NCBI GenBank assembly: GCA_028822845.1
Contig: JAPKCS010000014.1
Coordinates: forward strand, 1 to 47,055
DNA length: 47,055 nt
Source of the DNA: Candidatus Poseidoniaceae archaeon
GTDB lineage: Archaea; Thermoplasmatota; Poseidoniia; Poseidoniales; Poseidoniaceae
Reading direction: 5' to 3'
A program made the position numbers and the translations under genes. Every line of letters starts with the position of its first letter. Position 1 is the stretch's first letter. The notes beneath the pieces are model-generated. The model searched no databases, was not told the origin of the DNA, and saw nothing but the letters and a program-made list of their open reading frames with translations. This document shows, one piece after another, positions 12,431-34,501 of the stretch.

Positions 12431-12769
12431 ATGTTGCAACGTGCGCTGGCCGGATTGTATCGCCTTGAAGGCGTGAAACAGGCCATGCTGATTGACGATA
12501 GTGGGAACTTGTTGGCCAGCGTTGGCGATGAAGGGGCTATGCCTCCTTTCGAACACGCTGTTGACGTTCTTTCTGCTGCGCTTGAATCGGCTGATGCCCT
12601 CGGTTTGGGGGCTGTGTACGAAGTATGGTGCGAAGGTGAAGAACGGTTGATGATCGATGTTGCATCGCCAACACGAATTGTCGCGTTGTCAGGAACAGGC
12701 GGGCGTCTTGCCCGATGGCGTCATGCCCTCGGCAGAGACCGCCGAATCTTGGCCACCACCCCCCAGTGA
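12431..12769 (+). CDS. Small Roadblock/LC7-domain protein
   Basis: 112 residues from the ATG at 12431, with AAAGGA ten bases upstream. The strand-helix-strand core reads VKQAMLIDDSGNLLAS, then a long helix (FEHAVDVLSAALESADALGL), then EERLMIDVASPTRIVAL, the pattern of Roadblock/LC7 (MglB-like) domains. These domains dimerise and commonly regulate small Ras-like or MglA-type GTPases. No GTPase gene lies in the window. Two residues in the last strand differ from typical members, and the C terminus is basic (RWRHALGRDRR). It is the first gene of an operon with the large Roadblock/coiled-coil protein, ten bases downstream. Confidence 0.7.
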   Translation: MLQRALAGLYRLEGVKQAMLIDDSGNLLASVGDEGAMPPFEHAVDVLSAALESADALGLGAVYEVWCEGEERLMIDVASPTRIVALSGTGGRLARWRHALGRDRRILATTPQ

Positions 12770-12778
12770 GTTGATAAA

Positions 12779-15700
12779 ATGTTTAACCTGCCCCAAGGAA
12801 CACCAATCGAAGAAGCCATATCGGTTGAAGACGGAACAATACAGCCATTTGATCACGGTGTTATCAGCACTTGGATTGGACGCCGTAAGACACCTGCTGG
12901 TCACCGACTTGTTCGGGCTGGGCGCATTGTTGGTTGGCTCGCTGAATCAGGGAAAGGGAACATCTTGCTCGCTGGTGGCGATGCTCGTCAACGCCTCGAA
13001 GCCATTGAAGCAGAGGGTTCCTCTCGTTTCATTGCCCAATCATATTCGCTTGTAGGGCTTGGAAGCGTTGCAGAAGTTCTTCCCGAAGCCTTTGAACATC
13101 CTGCTGACCGACAAGGTTTGCTTGCTCGCGGCGATGCACTCCAACGTTTGATGTCACGGGATTTGTCGGCTGTTCTCCACGCTCTGGTCGAACGCGACAC
13201 CGTTCGTGGTGCGATTGCAGTGGACCAAGGTCTCCTGATCGATAGCGTCGGTGAAATACCCAATGAGCCCGAAGTGCTGGCACGAGAAATCCATGCCTCC
13301 CTCGCAGCAATGTCCATCTCAATCATCGATGAAGGTGTTGAACCATCGGCTTCACATTGGACCATGCATCACGAAGGTGGCGCTCTTTTGCTTGCTCAAT
13401 CAGGCGATGCCTCCTTGGGCGTTTGGACCGAAGCAAACGCAGACCATGCCCGACTGATCTCAGCCGTAGCAGGTACGCTTGACGGAGAGATTGGTGCCAT
13501 CGGCGCTTCAGGCGGTCCAATTCCAGAAGGTTTCATCCTAAGAGAAGGGCGAGGCGGCCCCGATGCGATTCTTTCAATGCTGTCAGCAGCCATGCATGAA
13601 CAAGTCACAGGCCACTTGCAATCAGGTCAATCATCAACCTGCATTTCAGTGCTGTTGGCTCGCGGTATACCGGTCGGCGTTGCTGCACCAGAAGGCCAAA
13701 GCATGGAAGAAGCCATGTTGACCTTCACCGATTCAACTCGAGTGCTCAAGTTGCACCGCTTGCCATCTGGTAGCATTGTGTCCCGTGAATCAGGAAACAT
13801 CGATGGATTCAGTCTCGATCATTTGCAAGACCTCCTGGTCACCCTTCGCACCCGCTCCGAAAGTCGACGTGCCAATTTGACCTCCAAACTCAATCAATTG
13901 TATGGATTTGAGAGCGGAATGGAGAATCTACGAAAGAGCCGTTCATCGGCTGCGTTCTCTGAAACCGTCGACCAAGTCAGCGGTGGATTGGGCGGTGAAG
14001 TCTCTCAGCCACTCGCAGTGGATGCAGGTTTGCGACGACGCCTCGAATCGGCTGACCACCGCATCGATGAACTCGAAAAAGAAAAAGCAACCGTCGAAAA
14101 TCGATTGAGTGAAGCGAGGGCGGCGACGAGCGCTGCTCAAATCATTGCTCGTGAAGCCTCTGAAACTCGGACCGAATCAACAACTTCTCTCGAAGAAGCA
14201 CACAGTAAATTCGGAACAATGCAAGTGGAACTGGCTCAGTCGAAGGCGACCTCAGAACAAGCTGAAAACCGAGCAGAACGATTGGTTCGACGCGTCAATG
14301 AATTGGAGCACCAAGTTTCGCAACGTGCTGCAGAATTAGCCAAGGCTCTAGGCGATGCATCGTCCAGTGAAACCTTGCGCACAGCCATTGAGGACATGTC
14401 CCTCAAGGAAGCAGCACTCAACGCTGACCTCAACACTCACAGCCAACAACTGTCCTCCATCCGTCAACAATCTGAAGACGATGAACGCCGGCTTCAAGTC
14501 CTTCAAGAACAAGTTGCTGCAACTCGAGAACGTCATGCTCGAGCCCAAGCAGAAGTCTTGCTTCTCGACGAGAAGGTCAAGACCAACAACTCTGAATTGT
14601 CCGCCATCGAAGGTGAGGCAAAAGCAAGCCGTCGTCGGTCTGAAGAAGATCGCACTCGCCTCGCAACAGATGAAGCTCGCCAGGCTCAAGTCCAAGCAGA
14701 ATTGCGTGAACTCATGGATGAACGCCGACAAGTCCTTCGCGAACTCGGCGACCTTGGTGCCCGTCGTGGCCACGCAGAAGCAGAATTAGCATCGTTGATT
14801 GAACGCGCTGAAGCATTATCCGAAGCCCATGAAGCGGCTGTTGCCGACATTCAGGAAGCAGCACGCCTTCGTGCTCGGCTTGCTGAAGAACCCCTTGCCC
14901 AAGCACTGCTCGATGATGGTCAAACCTTCGACGGTCTCGGTCCGGTTTTGGAACGTCTCGAACATGCACGTGCCCTTGGCTATTCGGTGACACTGCTTGA
15001 CCGAGCCGTGGAACGCGGTTTGCAAGTCATTCAATCGACCGTTGACCATGTTGCAGCCACGCCTCGACATTTGTTGTCGAGTGAAGTCATGACGCTTCTT
15101 GAACGCCAGGTACCACAAACTGCTGGAGCAGTTCGTGGGTTGGCTCGATGGTCTGTTCAACAACGCCTCGAACACCAACTCGGTGAAACGGTGGGTCATG
15201 TGGTCCTCGACTTGGAACACTTGCTCGAAGACTACGACCGCTCGATCACCATGCTGCGACGGTTGCGAAATGTTCTGGAACAACTGACCCGACTTGGTGC
15301 ACCTCCTGAAGAGGTTGAAGCCCTTCTCAACAACTGCACGCGGCCTGAAGCATTGCCAAGCATTGCTCAATCCACTCGCAAATTGATTCAAGTTGCACTT
15401 GACGATATTTACCTTGAAGCAGATCAACGCGATGCTGGCGAAGCGGTTGCCTTGGAAGACACGGCACGTGTGCTCGAAGAACTCATCACTCAACTCGATG
15501 CGTCTGGTCTCGCAGATGGTATTCCCCGCGGTATGTTGTGGGAGTTCCAGCGCGATGGTTTGCTGCCTTACGAACGGGATTCCATTCCAGCCGGTCAACG
15601 AACACCCGTTGAAGAAACCATGATTTCAACCATGGAGTCCTCCCTTGCAGGCGAAATCCCGGTTTCGCTTGATGCGCCCGCTGAACCTTCAGAGGCCGAT

Positions 15701-15952
15701 GAAAAAGGATGGGAGTCCATGCCAGTTCCAACCGATGAATCAATCGATGAGGATTCAAGCGTCCAGCAAGCACCTGCAGCATCACAAACCACGCAAGTCG
15801 ATCTCGACGGAAGCGATGAACGCGCCGCTCTTGAAGCAGAACTTGCTCAGCTCGATGCTTCTTGGGAACACCGCAAGGAACCAGCGCCGACATCAACGCC
15901 CGACCCCGCTCTTGCAGCGCTCGAAGCTCGACTTTCCGGGCTTGAACTCTGA
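12779..15952 (+). CDS. Giant Roadblock plus coiled-coil protein
   Basis: 1057 residues. The first 370 or so residues contain at least one Roadblock/LC7-like unit (about 130-245: RGAIAVDQGLLIDSVGE, a helix ending in MSISI, then GGALLLAQSGDASLGVWTE) and probably two more degenerate ones on either side. Residues about 405-720 form a long heptad-rich coiled coil (LESADHRIDELEKEKATVENR style, few prolines), like SMC or golgin rods but without Walker motifs or hinge. Residues about 720-935 are a globular helical region. After about 940 comes an acidic, Pro/Ser-rich tail ending in a short helix (LAALEARLSGLEL). No ATPase. The architecture suggests a scaffold carrying Roadblock dimer platforms. It is followed nine bases later by a small membrane protein. 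Confidence 0.85.
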   Translation: MFNLPQGTPIEEAISVEDGTIQPFDHGVISTWIGRRKTPAGHRLVRAGRIVGWLAESGKGNILLAGGDARQRLEAIEAEGSSRFIAQSYSLVGLGSVAEVLPEAFEHPADRQGLLARGDALQRLMSRDLSAVLHALVERDTVRGAIAVDQGLLIDSVGEIPNEPEVLAREIHASLAAMSISIIDEGVEPSASHWTMHHEGGALLLAQSGDASLGVWTEANADHARLISAVAGTLDGEIGAIGASGGPIPEGFILREGRGGPDAILSMLSAAMHEQVTGHLQSGQSSTCISVLLARGIPVGVAAPEGQSMEEAMLTFTDSTRVLKLHRLPSGSIVSRESGNIDGFSLDHLQDLLVTLRTRSESRRANLTSKLNQLYGFESGMENLRKSRSSAAFSETVDQVSGGLGGEVSQPLAVDAGLRRRLESADHRIDELEKEKATVENRLSEARAATSAAQIIAREASETRTESTTSLEEAHSKFGTMQVELAQSKATSEQAENRAERLVRRVNELEHQVSQRAAELAKALGDASSSETLRTAIEDMSLKEAALNADLNTHSQQLSSIRQQSEDDERRLQVLQEQVAATRERHARAQAEVLLLDEKVKTNNSELSAIEGEAKASRRRSEEDRTRLATDEARQAQVQAELRELMDERRQVLRELGDLGARRGHAEAELASLIERAEALSEAHEAAVADIQEAARLRARLAEEPLAQALLDDGQTFDGLGPVLERLEHARALGYSVTLLDRAVERGLQVIQSTVDHVAATPRHLLSSEVMTLLERQVPQTAGAVRGLARWSVQQRLEHQLGETVGHVVLDLEHLLEDYDRSITMLRRLRNVLEQLTRLGAPPEEVEALLNNCTRPEALPSIAQSTRKLIQVALDDIYLEADQRDAGEAVALEDTARVLEELITQLDASGLADGIPRGMLWEFQRDGLLPYERDSIPAGQRTPVEETMISTMESSLAGEIPVSLDAPAEPSEADEKGWESMPVPTDESIDEDSSVQQAPAASQTTQVDLDGSDERAALEAELAQLDASWEHRKEPAPTSTPDPALAALEARLSGLEL

Positions 15953-15961
15953 GGTGTTTGA

Positions 15962-16210
15962 ATGACTGAAGAACCAACCACACTCATGGCCCGTGATGAA
16001 TCGGGTGGAAGGGCATATCCGATGTACCTTGAACGGTTGATGTTCATTGGTGCCATCATCGCTTTCTTCTTCTTGCAACCGATCGTCATGGATGGAATCG
16101 ATTCACCAGGATGGCTTTCTGTTCTTGCCGGCTGGTGTGGTTTGCCGATTGCCCTGATGGTGCTGAGTGAATCGTTTGGTCGCCTGTTGCAACGTGTGCT
16201 ATCGGACTGA
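15962..16210 (+). CDS. Small two-helix membrane protein of the Roadblock operon
   Basis: 82 residues with Shine-Dalgarno GAGGTG eight bases before the ATG. Two hydrophobic helices (about 25-43, LMFIGAIIAFFFLQPIVMDG; about 50-70, LSVLAGWCGLPIALMVLSES) are joined by a short loop, with a charged N terminus and a basic patch at the end. No family recognised. Its tight spacing to the coiled-coil gene suggests it could anchor that protein or its partners at the membrane; this is inference. Its stop lies inside a dyad shared with the converging gene. Confidence 0.7.
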   Translation: MTEEPTTLMARDESGGRAYPMYLERLMFIGAIIAFFFLQPIVMDGIDSPGWLSVLAGWCGLPIALMVLSESFGRLLQRVLSD

Positions 16211-16223
16211 CCTTCAAAGGTCA
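16208..16223. terminator. Shared bidirectional hairpin between converging genes
   Basis: TGACCTT / AAGGTCA (16208-16214 with 16217-16223) is a perfect inverted repeat with a two-base centre. The stop codons of both converging genes lie within it. It may serve as a common 3' boundary for both transcripts. Confidence 0.45.
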
Positions 16224-17437
16224 ACGACTTCTTTGACAGTGTTTGTCGCTGCCATTGGTGTTTGTCCTCGAATTGAATTGATCAAGCCCCAAACCCGTTC
16301 CCATGGAACGAAGAAGCGCAACAACGCCATGATGCTCAAGAACATCAGCGCCGAGATGACCAATCCATAGGTCAAAGAGAGTTCAATCGATTCGGACACC
16401 TGTCCGGCCCATTGGCTCCCAGTGGAACCTTCGACAATGTTCAGCAGCACACTGTGGAACCCAAGAGCGACCATGGTTGCGATGCCAGTGAGCCCCAAGA
16501 ATCCGAAGGTGTGCTTGAGGTGAGTGTTGAGGACATTGTCCATTTGCCTGACATATTCAGGGTCACGCTTGCATGACTCAGGCAGTCGGTAGGCGTATTC
16601 GAGGTATCGAATCACACCGTAGGATGACTCTTGGAACACCATGATCAGAATGGCGATCATGATGAGCGCAAACTGTTCACTGGTCACCAGCATCAATCCA
16701 AACAGACCAATGGTTGGTTCGGTAAACTGAGTTTCAACGGTGGCCAATGCCTCCCCATAGGTGCCAAGTTGGCCATTGATGAGGGGGAAGGCAAGGATGG
16801 CGTGAATTCCAAGGAAGAGGAGTGTGAACCCGATGGACCATGCGATTGAACGGCGAGAAAGTCCCCAAATGCCTCGTGTACCCATGATGACAGGTAAGAG
16901 ATAAATGAACATAATCATCAACGACATGATCATCAAAAGAGGCCACTCAAGCGTTGCTAATTCACCTTGGTCGGGCAGGCGTAAATCAAACGATGTCAGC
17001 ATACTAAAGCCCCATTCAATGATGAGGCGTCCAACCAAAACCACGATCAGCGTGATGATGAATCCGAGTTTGATTCGTTGTTGGGTTGTTGGGGTTTGGA
17101 AGGCAAGGAAGGCCATGCTCCCACCCAAGGAGAGACCGAGAATCAGCGGCACAGAGAAACGACCAAGACCACTGTTGCCTTCACCGGTAAGGAAATCTCC
17201 GATTGGCAATTGCTGGCCAATTAGGATTTCAATGGTGTCGAACAGCATGGTGTGGTCGATGGAGCCAACCACGTAGGTTGAGACCACTTCGAGGTACATA
17301 CCGACAAGAGCGACGGTAGCGATGACTTGCAGAGCAATGATTTGCCACTGCTTTCGCAACAGCTTGAGGTGGAGGGTTCGCGAGCGGAAGTCGCCATTGA
17401 CGGTGACATCCCGTTGAAGTCCAACATCTTCAGCCAT
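16214..17437 (-). CDS. Multi-pass membrane protein of the DUF58 operon
   Basis: 407 residues from the ATG at 17437, two bases after the DUF58 stop; the frame is open upstream but would overlap that gene. About eight hydrophobic helices are visible (for example IIALQVIATVALVGMYLEVV, LKLGF..IVVLVGRL, LMIMSLMIMFIYLLPVIMG, LMLVTSEQFALIMIAILIMV, and LTYGLVISALMFLSIMALL near the end). Between them lies a conserved-looking polar stretch (YRLPESCKRDPEYVRQMDN). No known family recognised. Its position in the DUF4350-DUF58 operon suggests a membrane partner of those proteins. Confidence 0.8.
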   Translation of the reverse strand: MAEDVGLQRDVTVNGDFRSRTLHLKLLRKQWQIIALQVIATVALVGMYLEVVSTYVVGSIDHTMLFDTIEILIGQQLPIGDFLTGEGNSGLGRFSVPLILGLSLGGSMAFLAFQTPTTQQRIKLGFIITLIVVLVGRLIIEWGFSMLTSFDLRLPDQGELATLEWPLLMIMSLMIMFIYLLPVIMGTRGIWGLSRRSIAWSIGFTLLFLGIHAILAFPLINGQLGTYGEALATVETQFTEPTIGLFGLMLVTSEQFALIMIAILIMVFQESSYGVIRYLEYAYRLPESCKRDPEYVRQMDNVLNTHLKHTFGFLGLTGIATMVALGFHSVLLNIVEGSTGSQWAGQVSESIELSLTYGLVISALMFLSIMALLRFFVPWERVWGLINSIRGQTPMAATNTVKEVVDL

Positions 17438-17439
17438 AC

Positions 17440-18696
17440 TCAGTACCCCCGAACCTGCATCAATGCCTGAGACAAATCCATGTCTGGCATCCAATCAATG
17501 ACTTGCGCCCCAGATCCTGCCAAGGTTGTCAGACGGTTTTGCCGTTCCAACTTCAACACCTCATAGGACATGCGAGGAATACGACTGACGAGGCGTTCGA
17601 AATCGATGCTCGATGGGGATAAAACGGTGACTTCGTGACCTCGCCCAACAAGGTCGCGTACCGCCGCTGGTACGGTTCCATCGCCCTCACATGAGGAGAT
17701 GATGAACACAGGACTTCCACGGCTGAACCGACCACTGAGGGAATTTGTAACCGCTTGCAACGGCATTGAACCCTTAGGGGAAACTCCCGCAAGAGCGCTG
17801 AGGATTTTGAAATACTGCTTATCGCCGGTGTCAGGAGGTAGGTAGGAAAGTTTCTCATCGAAAATCGCTAGAGCAACGGAGTCACGTCGCTTGAGGAAGA
17901 AGGCAGCGAGGCTTGCGGCTGAGACGGTGCCCATTTCCAAGGGGTTCTTGAGAACGGTTCCAATCCGAGCGATGTCACGGCTGTCGAGCAAGAGGTAGAG
18001 GTCAGTGACCGCATCTCGGCACTTTTCGTTGACCATCAATTCCCCGGTTCGGGCGAATGCCTTCCAGTTGATGTTCTTGAACGGATCTCCGGGGACATAC
18101 TCGCGCAGTGAATAGAATTCTGAGCCTTGGCCGGGGGTGCGGAGCGTTGTTGCGCCCGTGTACATCTTTGGGGTTCTCGAACGGAGGAACGCTTCCTCGA
18201 CTTCCTTGATTTGAGGGAAAATGACGATGTCACTGTGATGGTCGACGTACATTTCATCGACGCTCAAATTGAAGGTGTTTCGTGAACGAAGGGAGACTGG
18301 GCCAATTGAGTAATGGCCACGAAGGGGGCAGCGTAGGACGTAGCGAATACGGGCGCTCTCACCTGGTTTGAGGTTGAGGCGCATCTGATTGAGACCGCTT
18401 CGCAGTTTCATTTCGTGTGGAATGTTATCGTAGACTTCGAGCAGTTGGGTGTTTCGATTTGAACGGTTGGTGACCAACAGTTCGACGTACAAATCATCGC
18501 CCTTGTACAGGTTATCTGCCGAAAGGGTGCGTTGTACCTCGACTTCACCGTGCCCTGTGATCCAAGAGTTCACGACGATGAAGGCCACAAAAGTGAGGCC
18601 CAAAATCATCATCTGAAGGTTCGAAATCATCATGCCGATGAGCACCAAGGCGATACCGCCAGTGAATGTGAAAGAGGCCTTACGTGTCCACATCAT
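17440..18696 (-). CDS. DUF58 family membrane-anchored protein
   Basis: 418 residues. Two adjacent N-terminal membrane helices (about 10-45) are followed by a beta-rich domain and then the DUF58 core. Its signature GSEFYSLREYVPGDPFKNIN continues into WKAFARTGELMVNE, at about 205-240. The C-terminal half has a von Willebrand A-like look (DLYLLLDSRD, VFIISSCEGDG). DUF58 genes typically sit with MoxR AAA ATPases, transglutaminase-like and DUF4350 proteins. Here DUF4350 and a multi-pass membrane protein flank it at 2-6 bases, but no MoxR gene is present within the window. Role unknown. Confidence 0.92.
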   Translation of the reverse strand: MMWTRKASFTFTGGIALVLIGMMISNLQMMILGLTFVAFIVVNSWITGHGEVEVQRTLSADNLYKGDDLYVELLVTNRSNRNTQLLEVYDNIPHEMKLRSGLNQMRLNLKPGESARIRYVLRCPLRGHYSIGPVSLRSRNTFNLSVDEMYVDHHSDIVIFPQIKEVEEAFLRSRTPKMYTGATTLRTPGQGSEFYSLREYVPGDPFKNINWKAFARTGELMVNEKCRDAVTDLYLLLDSRDIARIGTVLKNPLEMGTVSAASLAAFFLKRRDSVALAIFDEKLSYLPPDTGDKQYFKILSALAGVSPKGSMPLQAVTNSLSGRFSRGSPVFIISSCEGDGTVPAAVRDLVGRGHEVTVLSPSSIDFERLVSRIPRMSYEVLKLERQNRLTTLAGSGAQVIDWMPDMDLSQALMQVRGY

Positions 18697-18702
18697 CTCA
18701 CC

Positions 18703-20310
18703 TCAGGTTCTGCCCCACGCTTTGATTCGTTTGACGACTGCAACGGTTTGTTCCAGCGAATATTTGCTGGGTTCGATGGCGAACTTCGCTAACACTGGAT
18801 CATTGATCAGCGACACGAGGTCTTTCGCCGGCATGGCATGGAATTCTTCTCGATTCAATCCGTTCTGGTTGCGGACTTTGGACAAGAACACTTGTCGGAT
18901 CTTTTCGCTCTTTGCGTAGTAGGTGTACCTGTTTGCGTCGCCAAATCCGTAGTAGATGATGCTGAACACGTGTCGCCATGGTTCTGGGTCACGCTTCTTC
19001 AAAAGAACGGCTTCAAAGGTGACGAAGAGCACCAAGAACAGCAGGAGCATAGCAAGCCCTTCTCCGGTAAAGTACACCAGAAGGAAGTAGATGGTGTTGT
19101 AAGAATCAGCAAGCAGTGCGTTCTGAGGGTGGCGTGATTCGTCAAAAATAACCATGGCCGTTTCAGCTGGCTGGCCAACTTCATCGGCTTCAGTGGACAT
19201 CAGGGCTTCAGCAATGAAGTCCATAGCCCACTTGCGGTTGTCATTTTCAGGAATGGTTTTGTTGGTCGGGCCATACTTGCCTTCGTTGAAGCCTTCATAG
19301 TCGTACATGGCATTGATCAGTGCTGAACCGTCAGCCATGAACACGATGCGTCCACCATCGTTGGGATCGCATGTGCTTCGAGCACATGCTTCGAAACTGA
19401 GGTTGAATTGGCCCCACAAATCTGGTGTTTCAGAGTTCTGCTCATTGCCGACCCAAATCTCACCGTCTCCGTTCACGTCGACGGTTGCTTCGTTGCTTGT
19501 CACGGCACGGACCGACACTTCGGGCAGTGCCCCACGGACACCTGGGATCAGTTCGAGGGCTGTGATGTCGTTGAGTAAGACTTGGTATGTGGCGTTGTAT
19601 TGAATTTCACCAGCGTTCCAGTGTTGTGTGCAAAGTCCGGCATCTTCGAGTTCCATTGTTTGACCATCAAGAATGCCGCAAGGGTGTTCGCCCTCGCCCG
19701 AGTTCCCACTCCAGCGGTTGTGCACCGACACTGTGGACTGGTCGATGACGCTGCCATTCATGCCACAAGGTGTTGCTTGAACGCACATCCAAATGAAGTT
19801 GTAATCCAGTTCAGGGACGTAGGTGGTGTCGTAGAGTTGGTAGCCAGTGTAACGAACACCAAACGCCTCTGCTATGGTTCCAGCAAAGCCGTAATCCTCG
19901 AGCACCAGAGCGGTACCGCCAGCTTCTACAAATTCGACGATAGCATCGATTTCAGAAGGAGAATACCCGTCATCTGCTGCGATGGTGATGAAGCCATCTT
20001 CATCGAATTGAGGTAAAGAGAGTGTGTCACGTTCAACTCCGGCAACAATGTACGTGGTGTTGCGTGGATCTTCGATGTCTGCGAGCAACAATGGGCTGCT
20101 GACAAGGGAACTGGTCTTGATTCCAGCGGCTTTGAGGTCGGCTCTGAATGCAGACATGTCGTCCCAATCGTCATCATATGCTGACAATTGGTTGGTGTTG
20201 GAAAGGTTGACAAAATTGAGCAAAACCGTCATCAAGAGCAGCGACAAGACAAACCAAAATGCGGCTTGGAGGCCGAATCTTCGGTAGTTGAGGTTGCGGC
20301 CGCTTAACAT
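18703..20310 (-). CDS. DUF4350-like membrane protein
   Basis: 535 residues. One N-terminal membrane helix (about 13-31) leads to a large extracytoplasmic domain with a Rossmann-like fold pattern: LKAAGIKTSSLVSSPLLL, then YSPSEIDAIVEFVEAGGTAL (about 112-131), typical of DUF4350/GldG-like domains. A helix pair near 405-440 (LLVYFTGEGLAMLLLFLVLF) is followed by a cytoplasmic tail. The extracytoplasmic part has several Cys pairs (VQATPCG, ACARSTCDPNDGG), so disulfides are possible. The second half of the soluble region is not obviously DUF4350. First gene of the minus-strand operon with DUF58. Confidence 0.8.
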   Translation of the reverse strand: MLSGRNLNYRRFGLQAAFWFVLSLLLMTVLLNFVNLSNTNQLSAYDDDWDDMSAFRADLKAAGIKTSSLVSSPLLLADIEDPRNTTYIVAGVERDTLSLPQFDEDGFITIAADDGYSPSEIDAIVEFVEAGGTALVLEDYGFAGTIAEAFGVRYTGYQLYDTTYVPELDYNFIWMCVQATPCGMNGSVIDQSTVSVHNRWSGNSGEGEHPCGILDGQTMELEDAGLCTQHWNAGEIQYNATYQVLLNDITALELIPGVRGALPEVSVRAVTSNEATVDVNGDGEIWVGNEQNSETPDLWGQFNLSFEACARSTCDPNDGGRIVFMADGSALINAMYDYEGFNEGKYGPTNKTIPENDNRKWAMDFIAEALMSTEADEVGQPAETAMVIFDESRHPQNALLADSYNTIYFLLVYFTGEGLAMLLLFLVLFVTFEAVLLKKRDPEPWRHVFSIIYYGFGDANRYTYYAKSEKIRQVFLSKVRNQNGLNREEFHAMPAKDLVSLINDPVLAKFAIEPSKYSLEQTVAVVKRIKAWGRT

Positions 20311-23054: not shown

Positions 23055-23165
23055 GTTCACGCCGACCCCATTTGAACCTAATGTCGTTTTTTCATGGTTC
23101 TTATGGTGTGAGGACCTTCGTCCGTGTTCCATCACTTTGAAGAGGGGCGTTTTGTTCGCCCAACC

Positions 23166-24794
23166 ATGGTTCACGTCTTAGAAACCGGCCTCGAGTTCCT
23201 CGCACATGAAAACCCAAACGGAAAACCGTCCGTCCAAGGTTACAACATCATCAACGGTCAATTGACTTCGGCCAGCGACGGTGGGACCTTTACTTCGATC
23301 AATCCAGCCATCCTCAACGACACATTGGGCAGCTTCCCATTGTCGACCAAGGCTGATGTTCACGCCGCTCTTGACGCCGCTCATGCTGCCTTCCCTGGCT
23401 GGGCTGCAACACCTGCTCCAACCCGTGGTCAAATCATCGGTAACATGGGACGCTTGCTTATGGATCACAAAGACGCTATCGTTGCGCTTGAAACCCGTGA
23501 GATTGGAAAAACACTCAAAGAAGCAGCAGGCTCGGTCCAAGAAGCCATTGACACGTGCCTCTTTTTCCAGTCTGAAGGTCGCCGATTGTACGGTCAGACC
23601 GTCAACTCAGAACTTCCAGACAAGGAATTGTTCACCTACCGACGCCCACTTGGTGTCTGTGGCATCATCAATGCCTGCAACTTCCCTGCAGCCGTTCCAT
23701 TCTGGAAGATGATTCCAGCCATCATGTGTGGAAACACCTGCGTCTGGAAGAGTCCACAAGACGCTCCTCTGCTTTCCTTTGCCCTCGCTCGCATTATGCA
23801 CGAAGCAGGTTTGCCAAACGGCGTCATCAACCTTGTTCACGGCAAGGGCAGCGGTGCTGGCCAACACTTGGTCGACGCTGTCGATGAAGGACGCGTCAAC
23901 AAGATCTCGTTCACAGGTTCGACTGAAGTCGGCAAGATGATCGGCGAAGTGTGTGGACGGAACTTGGTTTCCTGCTCACTCGAATTGGGCGGCAAGAATC
24001 CCCTTGTCGTCATGCCATCCGCTGACCTTGACAATGCTGTTGAAGGCGCTTACTGGGGTGCCTTTGGAACCGCTGGCCAACGCTGCACTTCGCTGGGCAA
24101 CCTGATCATCCATGAGGAAGTTTATGACGACTTCATGGCCAAGTTCATGGCCAAGGTTGAATCAACTCGAATCGGTGATTCTTTGGTTCACGATGGTGTT
24201 CTCTACGGACCAATGCTCTCTGAAAAATACGCTAAGGACTTCCTTTCCGCAGTGGAGATGTGCAAGGCCTCTGGTGCAACCCTGGCTCACGGCCGAGGTC
24301 GAATTTCGAGCGATAACAAACCAGCCAACTTCCTCAGCACTGCTGAAGACGGTGTCTACATGTGGCCTCACGTCTTCACCGATGTGACCGAAGACATGGA
24401 ATGCTTCCACGAAGAAGTGTTCGGTCCTGCAGTTACCATCTGTAAAGCAACGGACTTCGACCACGCTCTCCACCTTGCAAACGCAAGCCCGTATGGTCTC
24501 TCCTCTGCTATCTACACCAATGATCGACTCGAAGCTTACCGCTACAAAACCGGAATCAAGGCTGGAATGACTGGGATCAACAATTCAACCACAGGCGCAG
24601 AAGCACACTTGCCGTTTGGCGGTGTGAAGGGCAGTGGAAACGGTACCCGTGAATCTGGTATTTGGGTCATTGAAGCATATTCCTACTGGCATGCAGTCAA
24701 TGACGAATTGTCTGGAAAGCTCCAACTCGCTCAAATGGACGTTGAAGATGTCGAAATGGCCGAAGCAGACGTCGATTGGACACAACTGGCATGA
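23166..24794 (+). CDS. Aldehyde dehydrogenase, ALDH7-like
   Basis: 542 residues from the ATG at 23166. A GTG at 23124 is in frame but adds a poorly supported N terminus and lies close to a TATA-like TTATG (23101). All ALDH signatures are present: catalytic Asn near 172 (NACNFPAAVPFW), Lys195 (VWKSPQ), FTGSTEVG (249-256), general base Glu273 (LELGGKNP) and nucleophile Cys307 (GTAGQRCTS). GTAGQRC and FGGVKGSG are closest in style to the ALDH7 (antiquitin) group. The enzyme oxidises an aldehyde with NAD(P); the substrate is unknown. A short hairpin GGGCG / CGCCC (23145-23161) lies just before the start. A 10-bp hairpin follows the gene. Confidence 0.95.
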   Translation: MVHVLETGLEFLAHENPNGKPSVQGYNIINGQLTSASDGGTFTSINPAILNDTLGSFPLSTKADVHAALDAAHAAFPGWAATPAPTRGQIIGNMGRLLMDHKDAIVALETREIGKTLKEAAGSVQEAIDTCLFFQSEGRRLYGQTVNSELPDKELFTYRRPLGVCGIINACNFPAAVPFWKMIPAIMCGNTCVWKSPQDAPLLSFALARIMHEAGLPNGVINLVHGKGSGAGQHLVDAVDEGRVNKISFTGSTEVGKMIGEVCGRNLVSCSLELGGKNPLVVMPSADLDNAVEGAYWGAFGTAGQRCTSLGNLIIHEEVYDDFMAKFMAKVESTRIGDSLVHDGVLYGPMLSEKYAKDFLSAVEMCKASGATLAHGRGRISSDNKPANFLSTAEDGVYMWPHVFTDVTEDMECFHEEVFGPAVTICKATDFDHALHLANASPYGLSSAIYTNDRLEAYRYKTGIKAGMTGINNSTTGAEAHLPFGGVKGSGNGTRESGIWVIEAYSYWHAVNDELSGKLQLAQMDVEDVEMAEADVDWTQLA

Positions 24795-24801
24795 GTGAAC
24801 C

Positions 24802-24825
24802 TTTCCAAACCATACGGTTTGGAAA
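24802..24825 (+). terminator. Ten-base-pair hairpin between ALDH and crtB
   Basis: TTTCCAAACC (24802-24811) and GGTTTGGAAA (24816-24825) are perfect arms around the loop ATAC, seven bases after the ALDH stop and 60 before the crtB ATG. No T tract follows, so an mRNA processing or control element is as likely as a terminator. Confidence 0.5.
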
Positions 24826-24884
24826 AACCACAGTTCAAATATGAACATGATTGCTTGATGCTTGTTGATAGGGGTGAATCACAC

Positions 24885-25892
24885 ATGACATCGAGTTTCT
24901 TACTAGGCGAAAATGGAGGTGATTCCTCTTCTGAACGTCTCGAACAAGCCTATTCACATTGTGAATCAATTGCTCGCGCAGCATCAAGTTCCTTTTTCCG
25001 TTCGTTCAGGCACCTGCCTGAACCAAAGCGCAAAGCAGTGAATGCCCTCTACGCTTTTTGCCGTCGAGTTGACGACATTGTCGATGGAGATTGGTTGCCA
25101 ACTGGTGACTTTGCCTATCTTGATGCAGCAACAGAAGAGCGCCTGACCTTCTTACTCGAGCAACGGGAAACGAACTCAGCCTATGGCAGCGAAGAACATC
25201 ACCTCCGGTTGCGCGCTTTGATGCTGTTCAGAGAGCGCCTCGACAGCGTTCAGAACGGTGAAGAAATGTCCGAACATGTGTTCATTGCTTTGGCCGATAC
25301 GGTTCAACGGTATCCAATTGAACTCGATCACCTGCGCGAACTCATCAACGGAATGGAAGACGATTTGTTTGACACAAATTACGCTCGCTTTGAGGACCTT
25401 CGCCATTACTGCTACCGAGTTGCTTCAACGGTCGGATTGTGCTTGATTGAAATTTACGGCTACACAGATTCAAACGCTCGACGTCACGCTGTCGAGATGG
25501 GCCTGTTCCTTCAACTGGTCAATGTGTTGCGAGACATTCAAGAAGACCTTGAACGAAATCGAATCTACCTTCCAACAGAAGAGTTAGCAAAGTTCGGTCT
25601 TTCGCACAAAGACTTGGCTGATCCAACCTTGGCCACCCGACCTGCTTGGCAGAACTTCATGCGTCACTACATCGACCATGTGGTGGCAAACCGGAACAAT
25701 GCTCTCGGGCTTTTGCCTTTGCTTGACAAGGATGCACGACGGTCTCCTCGGTTGATGTGCATGGCCTACAACGCTATTCTCAAAGAAGCAGTTCGACGCA
25801 ACGGCGATGTCTTGAGCCGTCGGTTAACCCTCAACTTTTATCGGAAAATGCAAATGGCCATTTCCACATTGATCACACCTGGTCTCGATTGA
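24885..25892 (+). CDS. crtB: Phytoene/squalene synthase family protein
   Basis: 335 residues from the ATG at 24885, which has GGGGTGA nine bases upstream; the frame also offers an ATG at 24858. Two aspartate-rich prenyl-diphosphate motifs are clear: RRVDDIVDG (DDIVD at 63-67) and NVLRDIQEDL (about 208-215), with the substrate-binding SSSFF (34-38) and the FYRKM end typical of the family. It joins two C15 or C20 diphosphates head to head. Phytoene is the likelier product if carotenoids are made here, but squalene cannot be excluded from sequence. Marine surface archaea with rhodopsin need a carotenoid route; no rhodopsin gene is in the window. Confidence 0.92.
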   Translation: MTSSFLLGENGGDSSSERLEQAYSHCESIARAASSSFFRSFRHLPEPKRKAVNALYAFCRRVDDIVDGDWLPTGDFAYLDAATEERLTFLLEQRETNSAYGSEEHHLRLRALMLFRERLDSVQNGEEMSEHVFIALADTVQRYPIELDHLRELINGMEDDLFDTNYARFEDLRHYCYRVASTVGLCLIEIYGYTDSNARRHAVEMGLFLQLVNVLRDIQEDLERNRIYLPTEELAKFGLSHKDLADPTLATRPAWQNFMRHYIDHVVANRNNALGLLPLLDKDARRSPRLMCMAYNAILKEAVRRNGDVLSRRLTLNFYRKMQMAISTLITPGLD

Positions 25893-25897
25893 AGTCC

Positions 25898-25914
25898 CCT
25901 CGATTGATTCGAGG
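25898..25914 (+). terminator. Hairpin after crtB
   Basis: CCTCGA / TCGAGG with a five-base loop (25898-25903 with 25909-25914), six bases after the crtB stop. It lacks a T tract. Likely part of the 3' end shared by converging genes. Confidence 0.4.
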
Positions 25915-25952
25915 TGCAAAGAAAAGCGCACCACCACTGTTGATGACACCGT

Positions 25953-25969
25953 CCATGCAATGCGCATGG
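25953..25969 (-). terminator. Hairpin after the epimerase gene
   Basis: CCATGC / GCATGG with a five-base loop (25953-25958 with 25964-25969). It lies about 32 bases after the epimerase stop on the minus strand, facing the hairpin that follows crtB. Confidence 0.35.
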
Positions 25970-26000
25970 TGAATGTGGGTAGCGATCAAATCCAATCGAA

Positions 26001-27380
26001 TTAACGCCACAAACCGAGCGTATCACGCAGCGCAGGTTCGAGGGTCGTGTGCTCAAATCGATAACCGATTTCAAGCAAACGGGCAGGATGAACTCGGCTG
26101 CTGTCGGTGGTGAGGGTGACACCCATTTTCCCAAACAGAATCCAGATACCAAACGGTGGTGTTGGGATGAAGGCAGGGCGGCGAAGCACTTTGCCGAGGA
26201 CCTTGGCGAAGGTTTTCTGTCGAACAGTATCGGGCGCCACTAAGTTGTAAGCACCTTCACAGGTTTCGGTCATCAGAAGATGATGCATTGCATAGATTTC
26301 ATCGTCCATTGAAATCCAAGAAAGCCATTGCTTCCCCCAGCCGATCGGGCCGCCAGCACCAAGTTTTGCTGGAAGGAGCATTTTTCCTAATCCACCACCG
26401 GTGGCATCCAAAACGATGCCTCCAGTACGAGAGTGGATGGTTCGAATGCCTGCATCCCGTGCTGGTTGAGCTGCTGCTTCCCAGGCTGTGCATGTGTCAG
26501 CAAGGTAGCCTTCACCACAGGGCGACTCTTCGGTTAATTCTTCTTCACCACGGTTGCCATAGAAGCCAATGGCACTTGCGATCAAGAAGACCTCAGGTTT
26601 GTTCTTGAGGCTGGCCAGCGTTGAAGCCAACAACGCCGTGCTGTCGGTTCGACTGGTGCGAATCAAATCCATTCGTTTCTTGCTCCATCGCTTGTCTCCA
26701 ATGCCAGCCCCACCTAGGTGGATGACGGCGTCGAAACCTTCGAGTGAAGCAGCATCGATGGTGCCACCGCTAGGATCCCATTGAATCTCATTGGCACCTT
26801 CAGCAGGCGTACGACGGACCAATCGCCAGATGTCATGGCCACCTGTGTCAAGGAAAGCAACGAGGTGCCGTCCGATCAAACCAGAAGAACCTGCGATCAA
26901 AACTTTCTTTCGGTCGAGTTGTTCGAATTCTTTGTGACGTGCCATGTCACGGGTCAGTCGGTTGGCTCGCGCCTTGAACATTCGATCAACACGCTTCTTG
27001 ATGCCTCGTCCTGCAACAAGCATGCCAAGAGAGCCGAAGGGGACGCTGAAGTTAACGGTGTCAACAACGCGACAGGTGCCGTCATCATTTGGAACAAAGG
27101 AGTGAAGGTGATGCCAGGACTTGAACGGCCCTTTGATCATGTCATCTTCGAACGCATGTGGCGGGTTGTACCCTTTGTGCCGAGCAACCCATTGGAGTTT
27201 TATTGGTCCCATCGGGAATCGGAAAATGCGTTCTGAACCGTTTTCTAATGTGGGGTCAGCTCGAACTTCTTCGACCTTTTCCCAAGGGGGCATGAGTCGA
27301 CGAAACGATCCTTTTTTCTCGTGCCAATCGAAGGTCGAGGGGACGTCAGCGGGCACATGTGTTGTGTAAGTGTATTCCAT
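26001..27380 (-). CDS. SRPBCC domain fused to TIGR01777-type epimerase
   Basis: 459 residues. Residues 1-150 form an SRPBCC/START-like ligand-binding domain (YTTHVPADVPSTFDWHEKKG to a C-terminal helix). Residues about 158-459 are an NAD(P)-dependent SDR of the YfcH/SDR39U1 type: KVLIAGSSGLIGRHLV (nucleotide loop), VIHLGGAGIGDKRW, RTSRTDST, AIGFYGNRGEEELTE (catalytic Tyr in the GFYG), and a C-terminal winged segment near VHPARLLEIGYRF. This fusion is known in the family. Its substrate is unknown. It is followed on the same strand by the class II photolyase, 18 bases upstream of its start, a pairing seen in bacterial light-response clusters. Confidence 0.9.
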   Translation of the reverse strand: MEYTYTTHVPADVPSTFDWHEKKGSFRRLMPPWEKVEEVRADPTLENGSERIFRFPMGPIKLQWVARHKGYNPPHAFEDDMIKGPFKSWHHLHSFVPNDDGTCRVVDTVNFSVPFGSLGMLVAGRGIKKRVDRMFKARANRLTRDMARHKEFEQLDRKKVLIAGSSGLIGRHLVAFLDTGGHDIWRLVRRTPAEGANEIQWDPSGGTIDAASLEGFDAVIHLGGAGIGDKRWSKKRMDLIRTSRTDSTALLASTLASLKNKPEVFLIASAIGFYGNRGEEELTEESPCGEGYLADTCTAWEAAAQPARDAGIRTIHSRTGGIVLDATGGGLGKMLLPAKLGAGGPIGWGKQWLSWISMDDEIYAMHHLLMTETCEGAYNLVAPDTVRQKTFAKVLGKVLRRPAFIPTPPFGIWILFGKMGVTLTTDSSRVHPARLLEIGYRFEHTTLEPALRDTLGLWR

Positions 27381-27398
27381 TTTGGTTGCCTCTGTGGT

Positions 27399-28895
27399 TC
27401 ATTGACCAAACTCTTGCAAGTAAGGTTTGAGGTCAAATTTACGTCGGGTGTTTTGTGAAGACATGTATCGGACTTTGCCGAAGATCGCCCGTTCTGGGCC
27501 CCATGCACGATCGTGGCGGCCGAGCACCCAGAAAATACCGGTGTAGGAATTTGGGTCACGCCCGTCCAGAGCATACGTGTCGTTGAGTTCAATCATTCGT
27601 TCTGCTGCTTGTTCGGGTGACTCAGACCATTCAAGAATCCGCTTGCCCCAAAGCATGCGGAGGTAGTTGTGAATGATGCCCTTACGAACCAACTGGCGCT
27701 GTGCTGCATTCCAGATTTCATCGTGAGTGTCGGCGTTTCGAATCTGTTCGAGCGTGTAGGTGCTGCGCTCGTCATCAGCGTGTTCGGAGAGGGTGATCTT
27801 TGCCCAATTGGGGAGGGATTCGAACGTGTTGTGGTTTGGGTTGTGGAATGAATTGTTGAATCCGAGTTCTCTCCAGGTGATGATTTGGTCAAGGAAGGCC
27901 TCAACTGGTTCAGGCAGGCCCCACCATCCAGCACGGGCTCCTCGTCGTGAGGCGTTGATGAGGTCGGGCATCCAGCCGTTCGTATCGAGGATGCTCCGAA
28001 CCACTTCGATGGTCGAGAGGTGACCAAAGTGGAACCAGGGTGAAAGGCCAGTCGTCGCAGGGTTCTTGACTTGGTTTCGATCTTCATGGTAGCGGCTCAT
28101 TCGGTTGGATAAAAATTCTCGAAGCATTCGAACAGCGGTGTCTCGGCCACCTCGTACGTTGGGGACGGGCGGCACACTGTGGTCGATTTTTAGCGTTGAC
28201 AAGGCATCGATTCCAACCGAGCCTTGCTCACCCGCTCGCCACAGCCATTCAAACGGGGTGACTCCGAGTTCAGAGCGCTCGGCAATGGCACTGTAGGTTT
28301 CGTCGTCCATCCACAGTGAATGGTCGGGTTGAACTGGAATCTGAGATGGCCACGATTCAATGCATTCAACAAAGCGTTCATGGACAAAACGACGGAATCC
28401 ATGAGCGGTGGGATAGGTACGATCGGTCCAGGACATTGGGAACACACCGTTGGAATCAACAACCATGAACCGGCGCTGAAGGGACTTAGCAGCGCTTTCA
28501 ACGGCTTTGCGTGGGAAATACGTGGGGAATTCATCGCTGACGACAAGAACAGCCTTATCGGCGAGTTCGTGTAATTTGCCTATTTTCCCAGAGAGCGGAT
28601 TTTCAACCCAAGGAATGTGGCGGATGTTGTTTTCTTTGAAGATGCGAATGTTGTCGAGCATACCTTGAATCATGAACGACGTGATTCGGTCGTTGGCAAA
28701 TTCGTGCCGTGTTGATATTTCTTCGAGGACCAAGAGTGGTACATTGCGCTGTTCTGCAACATGGGCTGCGTATTCCAATGCTGCGTTGCAATGGAACCGG
28801 CGGTTGGCGATCATCCAGTACAGCACATAGTCGCCCTCATTGTTGAGCGGTTGGGTGTTGAGGGCCCGAGCTCGGTCACTCAGTTTTGGATTCAT
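27399..28895 (-). CDS. phr: Class II CPD photolyase
   Basis: 498 residues from the ATG at 28895, which overlaps the Nudix stop (ATGA), so the start is fixed by coupling. The N-terminal alpha/beta antenna domain starts VLYWMIANRRFHCNAAL, and the C-terminal FAD domain has ITWRELGFNN, MLWGKRILEWSESPEQA, LDGRDPNSYTG and WGPERAIFGKVRYM. These match the class II photolyase family, which repairs cyclobutane dimers with blue light and reduced FAD. The Trp-rich FAD region looks intact. Coupled to Nudix upstream and to the SRPBCC-epimerase downstream. Confidence 0.96.
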   Translation of the reverse strand: MNPKLSDRARALNTQPLNNEGDYVLYWMIANRRFHCNAALEYAAHVAEQRNVPLLVLEEISTRHEFANDRITSFMIQGMLDNIRIFKENNIRHIPWVENPLSGKIGKLHELADKAVLVVSDEFPTYFPRKAVESAAKSLQRRFMVVDSNGVFPMSWTDRTYPTAHGFRRFVHERFVECIESWPSQIPVQPDHSLWMDDETYSAIAERSELGVTPFEWLWRAGEQGSVGIDALSTLKIDHSVPPVPNVRGGRDTAVRMLREFLSNRMSRYHEDRNQVKNPATTGLSPWFHFGHLSTIEVVRSILDTNGWMPDLINASRRGARAGWWGLPEPVEAFLDQIITWRELGFNNSFHNPNHNTFESLPNWAKITLSEHADDERSTYTLEQIRNADTHDEIWNAAQRQLVRKGIIHNYLRMLWGKRILEWSESPEQAAERMIELNDTYALDGRDPNSYTGIFWVLGRHDRAWGPERAIFGKVRYMSSQNTRRKFDLKPYLQEFGQ

Positions 28896-29383
28896 AAATT
28901 GCCACCCCACGCCTCGGGCAGTGTGTGCAGGACATACGGATGGCCGCGGTCTGCTTCATAGTCGATGCTTGAGAGCAAATGTTTTGAATTCACTGCGTTG
29001 ATTGCCATGGATTTCATGGCATCGCTGATCCAATCAAGGGTTGAGAACTTCTCGGCTGAGACAAACACCGCCTCTGATACTTCGCTGTTCGGTGTTGGTA
29101 TCGCATCTGGTGCGACCTCGACGAGATAGGCGATAAAAATGGCAGGGGTGCCATCGAGCAGCCTCTCTCGGACCGACTGCACGCCCATCACGACCCCATC
29201 GATGTCACATTCCTCTTTGAGTTCTCGAAGAGCAGCGTCTCGTGGCAACTCTCCCGGGTCGACGTAGCCCTTAGGCAAACCCCATCGTCCTTGGTAGCGG
29301 CCATGTTGCTCTCTTACGAGCAGGATTGTACGTGCACGGCGCACAATTGCAGCAACACCCAAATCGCATTCCACATTGTGCAT
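28892..29383 (-). CDS. Nudix hydrolase
   Basis: 163 residues from the ATG at 29383. Its Nudix box runs G39-x5-E45-x7-R53-E54-x2-E57-E58 within WGLPKGYVDPGELPRDAALR and on; the usual Gly after EE-x is Asp60, a mild deviation. An ATG at 29425 in frame would add 14 residues, but a TATA box CTTTATA is centred 28 bases before 29383, exactly right for a leaderless mRNA starting at this codon. It overlaps the photolyase start by four bases. The substrate (oxidised nucleotide, NAD, ADP-ribose and so on) is not evident. Sanitation of damaged nucleotides would fit the repair setting. Confidence 0.92.
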   Translation of the reverse strand: MHNVECDLGVAAIVRRARTILLVREQHGRYQGRWGLPKGYVDPGELPRDAALRELKEECDIDGVVMGVQSVRERLLDGTPAIFIAYLVEVAPDAIPTPNSEVSEAVFVSAEKFSTLDWISDAMKSMAINAVNSKHLLSSIDYEADRGHPYVLHTLPEAWGGNL

Positions 29384-29407
29384 AAATTTCTTACTTGGCG
29401 AAATGCG

Positions 29408-29414
29408 TATAAAG
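29408..29414 (-). promoter_or_regulatory. TATA box of the Nudix-photolyase operon
   Basis: CTTTATA on the minus strand, centred 28 bases before the Nudix ATG at 29383, implying leaderless transcription. Confidence 0.6.
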
Positions 29415-29447
29415 GAATGTTTCATTCTTGTACGAATAAAAACAGCC

Positions 29448-29456
29448 TATTATAAT
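29448..29456 (+). promoter_or_regulatory. TATA box of ribA
   Basis: TATTATAAT centred at 29452, 27 bases before the ribA ATG at 29479, with no Shine-Dalgarno site. It is back to back with the Nudix promoter, making a compact divergent promoter. Confidence 0.6.
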
Positions 29457-29478
29457 GCAATGAGCGAAACCACGGCTC

Positions 29479-30090
29479 ATGCCTCAGTACCCTATCCATG
29501 CTGCTCACATCAAAGCAGACGCAAATCTACCAACTGAATACGGCAACTTTCGCATGAGGGTCTTCGTCGATGATGCGGGCGCTGAGCACTCGTTGCTCTC
29601 CGTTGGTCTCGATGAATCCACGTCCGCTCCGCTCGTCCGCATTCATTCAGAGTGCCTCACGGGTGACGCTTTTGGATCACTCAAGTGCGACTGTGGACCC
29701 CAACTGAAGGCCTCGATGGCCCGCGTCCAGGAAGAAGGATGCGGAGCGATCCTCTACATGCGACAGGAAGGGCGAGGCATCGGACTTGAAGCGAAGATTC
29801 AAGCCTATGCGCTCCAAGATCTCGGTCTCGACACCCTTGATGCAAACCTTGCTCTCAACTTGCCTGCTGACGCCCGTGAGTATTCGTTCTGTGCAGAGAT
29901 GCTAACAAAGGTCGGCGTCGATGAAGTCCGCCTGATGACCAACAACCCGCTGAAAGTTCACGGACTTCGTTCCAACGGAATTGCGGTTCATGAGCGTTTG
30001 CCGCACATCGCAGGCCGTTGTGAATTGAACGACCATTACCTCTCGACCAAGAAAAAGCGAATGGGGCATTTGATACCAGAACAGGCTTGA
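29479..30090 (+). CDS. ribA: GTP cyclohydrolase II
   Basis: 203 residues. Zinc ligands lie in SECLTGDAFGSLKCDCGPQL (Cys-x10-Cys-x-Cys). The GTP-binding and catalytic block is RQEGRGIGLEAKIQAYALQD, with MTNNPLKV near the end. It starts riboflavin synthesis by opening GTP. No DHBP synthase domain is attached and no other rib gene is present. Promoter spacing supports the ATG at 29479 as the first transcribed codon. Riboflavin is the FAD source for the photolyases and the flavin oxidase nearby, a sensible but unproved link. Confidence 0.95.
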   Translation: MPQYPIHAAHIKADANLPTEYGNFRMRVFVDDAGAEHSLLSVGLDESTSAPLVRIHSECLTGDAFGSLKCDCGPQLKASMARVQEEGCGAILYMRQEGRGIGLEAKIQAYALQDLGLDTLDANLALNLPADAREYSFCAEMLTKVGVDEVRLMTNNPLKVHGLRSNGIAVHERLPHIAGRCELNDHYLSTKKKRMGHLIPEQA

Positions 30091-30097
30091 AACTAAG

Positions 30098-30104
30098 TTA
30101 TAAG
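30098..30104 (+). promoter_or_regulatory. TATA box of the peroxiredoxin-regulator pair
   Basis: TTATAAG centred 25 bases before the ATG at 30126, supporting a leaderless start there and ruling against the upstream TTG at 30087. Confidence 0.55.
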
Positions 30105-30125
30105 GACACGATTCGAGGCAAAGGC

Positions 30126-30605
30126 ATGACCAATCAACTCTCGGGGGAAAAGGCCCCAGATTTCACTCTTCCTTCATCGAAAGGAGAGACAGTTTCTCTC
30201 TCGGATTTCGATGGAAAATGGAAAGTCGTCTTCTTCTATGCTAAAGACGGCTCACCGACCTGTAAGCGTGGCTGCTTGACCTTCAAAGAACAGTTTGACC
30301 TGTTCCAATCCTTGACGCCACCCGTTGAAGTCATCGGAATCAGCCAAGATTCCATCGAAGATCATCGCCGGTTCAAGGAAGATCTCGACCTCCCCTTTGC
30401 GCTCCTGAGCGACCCTGATCGGGAAGTCGCAGAAGCCTTTGGCGTTCCCTTGTTCCTCGGCCGATTCCCGGCCAAATCCTCGTTCCTTATCGGTCCTGAC
30501 CGTACCGTTCACTACTGCTATGACTGGCTGTTCCGCCCTCGCCGTCACGTGGCTCGTATTCTCGACGCCTTCAGTGAACTATCATCCGGGGGATCAATGA
30601 AATGA
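30126..30605 (+). CDS. Peroxiredoxin, BCP/PrxQ-like
   Basis: 159 residues, thioredoxin-fold start APDFTLPSSKGETVSLSDFD. The peroxidatic Cys46 sits in KDGSPTCKRGC, with a second Cys50. BCP/PrxQ proteins usually have Cys-x4-Cys; here it is Cys-x3-Cys, so whether Cys50 resolves the sulfenic acid is uncertain. It reduces peroxides using thioredoxin-like donors. Stop and the TrmB-like start overlap (ATGA), so the two are coupled. Confidence 0.9.
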   Translation: MTNQLSGEKAPDFTLPSSKGETVSLSDFDGKWKVVFFYAKDGSPTCKRGCLTFKEQFDLFQSLTPPVEVIGISQDSIEDHRRFKEDLDLPFALLSDPDREVAEAFGVPLFLGRFPAKSSFLIGPDRTVHYCYDWLFRPRRHVARILDAFSELSSGGSMK

Positions 30606-31993: not shown

Positions 31994-32031
31994 AAACATC
32001 TCTTGATAAGCGGGGCCTTTGATTTCCCCCC

Positions 32032-33249: not shown

Positions 33250-33258
33250 GGCTTCATC

Positions 33259-34497: not shown

Positions 34498-34501
34498 TGC
34501 C

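Follow-up and report, generated by a model that had tools for sequence, protein, structure and literature searches.

Two adjacent genes in a 47,055-nucleotide stretch of DNA from a Candidatus Poseidoniaceae archaeon (contig JAPKCS010000014.1, here called the window) may encode part of a Roadblock-based scaffold that works without a recognisable Ras-like GTPase. Gene 1 encodes a small Roadblock protein, and gene 2 a giant protein that joins a Roadblock domain to a long coiled coil. A further gene, r2, lies elsewhere in the same genome and encodes a second small Roadblock protein. The proposal that these three are parts of one scaffold is given a probability of roughly 45%. The strongest new argument for it is that tested genomes without genes 1 and 2 also lack r2, at an unlinked locus. 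This argument is weak in that it counts a single event, within a clade whose genomes are smaller.

The window is one contig (C9) of a 1.92-Mb genome that is 92% complete. Its relatives, named Candidatus Poseidoniales, Poseidoniaceae or Euryarchaeota archaeon, belong to Marine Group II. Gene 1 (positions 12431..12769, + strand) encodes 112 amino acids. Gene 2 (12779..15952, +) encodes 1057, made up of an N-terminal region, a Roadblock domain, a coiled coil, a conserved helical domain and a variable tail. Gene 3 (15962..16210, +) encodes a membrane protein of 82 amino acids. The gaps between the three are 9 nucleotides each, in agreement with an earlier note on this DNA, which had described three open reading frames (ORFs) packed within 10 bases of each other.

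In relatives, gene 1 stands 5' of gene 2 in all 25 loci, and ncsA adjoins the pair on the opposite strand in 24; at the remaining locus (L004) the contig stops 174 bases before gene 1 and is too short to show it. The ORF of gene 3 begins 2-11 nucleotides after gene 2 in 19 of 19 loci compared. Between the window and one related locus (L002), divergence at codon positions 1, 2 and 3 is 0.10, 0.05 and 0.40 for gene 1, 0.13, 0.06 and 0.56 for gene 2, and 0.31, 0.12 and 0.54 for gene 3. Because the order is kept and third positions diverge most, all three are real genes.

Gene 1 is a member of the Roadblock/LC7 family, as the earlier note had proposed. It is a single domain with the alpha-bb-alpha-bbb-alpha order of the Roadblock fold. 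A profile built from 22 relatives matches the Asgard Roadblock 7f8m at E 2.9e-8 and MglC (7ct3) at E 0.00059, and a Foldseek search finds MglB (3t1r_B) at E 2.7e-5 along with Asgard Roadblocks. The Roadblock model PF03259 is matched by 13 of the 22 relatives (E up to 1; best 9e-8), and CHASE8 likewise by seven (best 0.00062). The window protein alone reaches E 0.029 with PF03259, which is below the cut-off. A whole-genome search within the window's family found gene 1 in 54 of 58 genomes and 11 of 11 genera, missing it in G005, G013, G023 and G044.

Sequence profiles support one Roadblock domain in gene 2, at residues 119-242 (13133..13504, +), with the aligned part at about 132-229. Pairwise hhalign against the r2 family gives 92.7% and E 4.4e-7 over 88 columns. 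A profile search of residues 1-372 against the PDB returns Roadblock proteins in seven of nine rows, all within 122-229 (best E 0.036), the second-ranked row being selenoprotein S at 123-189 (E 0.18). PF03259 falls within the gene-2 frame in five genomes of a 78-genome search, at E 0.00098-0.0099; when applied to gene-2 proteins it matches three of 18 relatives (best 0.0092) and not the window copy.

The structural model of this domain has a predicted local distance difference test (pLDDT) score below 50. It places helices at 130-137, 164-176 and 223-234 and strands at 193-198, 201-208 and 211-217, an order that would fit a Roadblock fold with strands 1 and 2 unassigned. The earlier note had spoken of several Roadblock-like units, and this single domain is what stands of that description. 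On either side of it, residues 1-118 and 243-372 matched none of the Roadblock sets in profile comparisons, and hhalign of these segments against gene 1, r2 and partly one another gave nothing. A PATAN/DUF4388-like pattern in them is an impression that no analysis supports.

The coiled coil follows. Residues 416-713 (14024..14917, +) form two long helices in the model, 416-523 and 527-713. From about 409 to 645 the chain is predicted to fold as an antiparallel hairpin with its turn near 523-527, in a model with a predicted template modelling (pTM) score of 0.29. A coiled coil was expected from the earlier note and is supported: periodicity of 3.4-3.66 residues is strong at 416-523, where one of 1000 shuffles reaches it, and is not significant over 527-713 taken whole, where 232 of 1000 do.

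Residues 641-919 (14699..15535, +), the end of the coil and a C-terminal helical domain, are the most conserved part of the protein. Mean column identity among 21 proteins is 0.63-0.90 per 20-residue block, with a peak at 781-800. No convincing Pfam or PDB family was found for the helical domain. Its Pfam matches scatter over 23 families (best E 0.0034), and the top rows of its PDB profile search, which are FliS (E 0.016-0.036), were judged chance matches of the kind expected for helical proteins. In Foldseek the gene-2 model had no row with an E of 0.001 or below, and the proteins returned were mostly coiled-coil or helical; the VIA rows fall on 411-644.

A few copies of gene 2 are irregular. 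The frame is interrupted in L003:6001-9171 and G011:C1:1852802-1855974, by assembly error or decay, and L003, which has one in-frame stop, was left out of the gene-2 alignments. G073 has two similar copies (C4:375-3341 and C8:8100-11066), perhaps assembly redundancy.

The second small Roadblock gene, r2, was first met in a PF03259 search, at a place distant from genes 1 and 2. In the window's own genome it lies at G000:C18:39736-40053 (L151:7737-8054), between two coiled-coil genes. Pairwise hhalign of r2 against gene 1 gives 97.6% and E 2.8e-12, and r2 proteins pass the PF03259 cut-off in all three genomes scanned. Upstream is a coiled-coil-like protein of about 250-350 amino acids, together with an acetyltransferase-like gene in most loci. 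Downstream is a coiled-coil protein of about 290 amino acids, DUF7121-like (PF23435, E 1.3e-12), with a PurP-like gene close by. The labels PurP and acetyltransferase are tentative and go by sequence pattern. Gene order at this locus is rearranged in G066.

A KaiC-type ATPase lies near r2 in five of five Thalassarchaeaceae with r2 examined (L155-L159) and in none of four Poseidoniaceae. It is tail to tail with r2 in four of those five loci, and the copy in L109 matches PF06745 at E 4.3e-28.

Gene 2 occurs in 49 of 78 Poseidoniales genomes: all 38 of Poseidoniaceae and 11 of 40 of the sister family Thalassarchaeaceae, there in genera g15, g17, g19 and g22. It was found in 41 of 243 genomes of a phylum sample, all of them Poseidoniales, and in 80 of 145 genomes of a class sample, 45 genomes without a match standing outside the itemised list. 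The search extended over the phylum sample and, beyond the phylum, only over a relatedness scan reaching close relatives. Among the genomes listed from the class sample, one from the window's own genus (G127) is without gene 2. An assembly gap is the likely cause, because the ortholog of the neighbouring DUF58 gene is also missing (a 43% paralogue only is present).

Genes 1 and 2 travel together. The order gene 1, gene 2 recurs in 17 of 20 loci sampled from additional genera and from the sister family, and the three remaining loci (L061, L072 and L074) lie on contigs that cut gene 2. The neighbourhood is kept in the sister family, where the gene-1 relative before gene 2 has 21-26% identity. 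The 12 examined genomes without the pair form one clade with ultrafast bootstrap (UFboot) support of 100 in a tree of four neighbouring proteins. There ncsA and the genes for a membrane protein and DUF58 remain, and genes 1 and 2 are gone. Given this distribution and the absence in a single clade, the pair is an ancient unit passed on by vertical descent, and a single loss is the simplest account of where it is missing.

In the genomes tested, r2 is missing where gene 2 is missing. Its locus was surveyed in 25 hand-picked genomes (10 Poseidoniaceae, six of the sister family with gene 2 and nine without), using the DUF7121-like protein as a handle. This protein is found in all 25, with or without gene 2, and is thus outside the co-lost set. 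At its locus, all 16 gene-2 genomes, the window's own included, have r2, and none of the nine others does. Over the 78 genomes PF03259 (E up to 0.01) points the same way, with matches in 19 of the 49 that carry gene 2 and in none of the 29 that do not. In six of these nine (L142-L144, L146, L148 and L149) the flanking coiled-coil genes stand side by side, and both r2 and the acetyltransferase-like gene are absent from between them. In another, G058, the downstream coil alone is visible.

A search for small GTPases was largely negative. The Arf model PF00025 matched none of the 78 Poseidoniales genomes and 12 of 14 controls; in the window's own genome there was no match even at E 1. The Roc model PF08477 matched one genome of 78 and 11 of 14 controls. 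No GTPase family was found among 30 window proteins or seven r2-locus proteins scanned. These negatives rest on the Arf and Roc models; Rag (PF04670) and Ras (PF00071) were not searched for. The earlier note had suggested looking for an MglA/Ras-like GTPase elsewhere in the genome, and none came to light with these two models. The one Roc-positive genome, G007, has its matches on contigs C7 and C15, where acquisition or contamination is possible.

Roadblock domains normally pair as dimers. In the proposed scaffold, the two small proteins, from gene 1 and r2, would dimerise either together or with the gene-2 Roadblock domain. The parts suit such a scaffold, with no fewer than three Roadblock domains spread over three chains. 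The coiled coil of gene 2 would double back in the manner of an SMC arm. The Roadblock end of the protein would then lie near the highly conserved helical domain, and a conserved turn would form the opposite tip. Such a platform would need no recognisable Ras-like GTPase; its role would be to recruit or regulate some other partner. For that partner, the first candidates would be the coiled-coil genes that flank r2, along with the KaiC-type ATPase found near r2 in one family.

A bolder form of this proposal is tentative, and the odds are against it. It would make the system a Ragulator-like Roadblock complex that evolved to do without Ras-family GTPases altogether. Three chains, encoded at two unlinked loci, would bring at least three Roadblock domains together on an SMC-like coiled-coil hairpin. 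The complex would be a scaffold or a regulator of another NTPase, for instance the KaiC-type ATPase near r2, and its hosts would rank among the most abundant planktonic archaea.

Several observations weigh against a common scaffold. The joint loss is confined to the single clade described above, whose genomes are small (about 1.2-1.7 Mb), so gene loss along that branch was probably extensive and the shared absence could be coincidence. Two of the nine r2-negative loci (L145 and L147, in genomes G059 and G087) begin at a contig end, where r2 could not be seen. Loci without r2 have lost its acetyltransferase-like neighbour as well. The whole-genome Roadblock search has limited sensitivity, since PF03259 matched only 19 of the 49 genomes that are known to carry these genes. 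The Roadblock profile of gene 2 reaches only 15.1% and E 0.0017 with gene 1 in hhalign, and the full-length model of gene 2 is poor over the first 370 residues. A GTPase too divergent for the Arf and Roc models is possible. Finally, archaellin presence partly follows gene 2.

The first of these points leads to a rival explanation, in which the Roadblock genes have unrelated jobs and vanished together merely through the genome shrinkage of the clade. One loss event on one branch with smaller genomes, and the accompanying loss of the acetyltransferase-like gene, are what it would predict. It is nevertheless unlikely: flanking genes are largely retained at both loci, and the PF03259 search, with its limited sensitivity, is empty in all 29 genomes without gene 2.

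Another rival is a classical MglB-type module, in which gene 1, r2 and gene 2 regulate a small GTPase too divergent to be found. MglB and Asgard Roadblocks are indeed among the Foldseek matches of gene 1, and the r2 protein of the window's genome matches MglB weakly (E 0.072). Roadblocks apart from a GTPase are also common, 328 of 749 MglB homologues being uncoupled from MglA according to an excerpt of PMC4316618. This explanation is rather improbable in view of the Arf and Roc counts and of the lack of any GTPase family among the window and r2-locus proteins scanned.

The system might instead organise an archaellum or adhesion apparatus, as MglA/MglB acts on pili in Myxococcus. Archaellin (PF01917) is found in 38 of 38 Poseidoniaceae and in six of 11 Thalassarchaeaceae with gene 2, against four of 29 without; according to an excerpt of PMC6461757, all Poseidoniaceae and half of the genera in Thalassarchaeaceae have archaella, with adhesion as a suggested role. 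Over the 78 genomes, however, the association is partial and is broken by several genera, which makes this link very unlikely: g17 (three of three genomes) and g22 (one of one) have gene 2 and no archaellin match, and g14 (three of three) and g21 (one of one) have archaellin-like matches and no gene 2.

That gene 2 is a headless SMC/Rad50 relative, a chromosome-organising coiled coil, is the least probable idea of all, since its support lies in the coil (an NCBIfam SMC match at 419-693 with 26 bits against a cut-off of 567, and a modelled hairpin that resembles Smc arms), coiled coils match one another through composition, the protein ends in a Roadblock domain on one side and a helical domain of no assigned family on the other, and no Walker A or signature motif is found in it.

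The proposed scaffold comprises genes 1 and 2 and r2. Gene 3 has two hydrophobic stretches, at about 20-44 and 50-72, and so is the two-helix membrane protein of the earlier note. A relative of it is kept in nine of the 12 genomes without genes 1 and 2 (E up to 0.0011 among 475 ORFs), by a strict profile built without those genomes. The weakest of these matches (L098) is near the best chance hit (0.011). A tenth candidate (L093) is recognised by position only, at E 5, and with the strict profile no relative was found in L094 or L096. An iterative profile that took in sequences from genomes without the pair gives 10 of 12. Gene 3 is therefore not an obligate part, and the idea that it is a membrane anchor is weakened.

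The earlier note had seen a membrane-linked platform encoded by the trio. The membrane link is not supported, and of the trio the pair holds and gene 3 is separable. The Roadblock fold of gene 1, a Roadblock domain and coiled coil in gene 2, and the pairing of genes 1 and 2 are supported; the several units are not. The note's remark that no GTPase, Walker motif or SMC head is encoded in the trio also agrees with the patterns searched: Walker A ([AG]xxxxGK[ST]), NKxD and the ABC signature LSGG occur in none of the three proteins.

Past gene 3, on converging strands, lie the genes of DUF58, DUF4350 and a multi-pass membrane protein with some eight hydrophobic stretches, a conserved cluster at 16214-20310 (-). 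The membrane protein and DUF58 are present in all 12 genomes without genes 1 and 2, and DUF4350 in 11, one contig ending there. A separate run of genes at 23124-36133 includes aldehyde dehydrogenase, phytoene synthase, amine-oxidase-type, ABC1 kinase-like, GTP cyclohydrolase II and photolyase-related families and may be a pigment and light-damage cluster.

Roadblock domains are usually taken as a sign of small-GTPase control, and they figure in arguments on the archaeal roots of eukaryotic membrane traffic (in an excerpt of PMC10933270). A Roadblock protein apart from a GTPase is not itself new, because orphan MglB-type proteins are known. The unusual part is that an order without an Arf-model match has several Roadblock chains, one of them part of a giant coiled-coil protein. 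If such an order of archaea does retain these chains and no recognisable Ras-like GTPase, Roadblock platforms can serve another job, and Roadblock genes alone are no proof of GTPase signalling. In titles and abstract openings on Roadblock or coiled-coil proteins in Poseidoniales, Marine Group II or Thermoplasmatota the system is not described, and the literature search found no paper on DUF7121. The words "roadblock" and "GTPase" do not occur in the main text of the Marine Group II genome papers searched for them.

Among known systems, DUF7121 coiled-coil proteins adjoin r2 without being lost together with gene 2. SMC arms resemble the modelled hairpin of gene 2, but gene 2 has no ATPase head motif and no hinge match was seen. 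Asgard archaea have Roadblocks (7yh1, 7f8m and 9jue) together with Rab-/Rag-like GTPases, according to the same excerpt of PMC10933270, whereas the Arf model finds none here. Ragulator/LAMTOR is a platform of Roadblock heterodimers; no p18-like wrapper was identified here, Rag lying outside the models searched, and a coiled-coil chain stands in its place. MglB and MglC, regulators of MglA in Myxococcus and Thermus, have the same fold as gene 1. The 78 genomes, however, gave no Arf/MglA-type match, and the neighbour of gene 1 encodes a giant protein with a Roadblock domain and a coiled coil.

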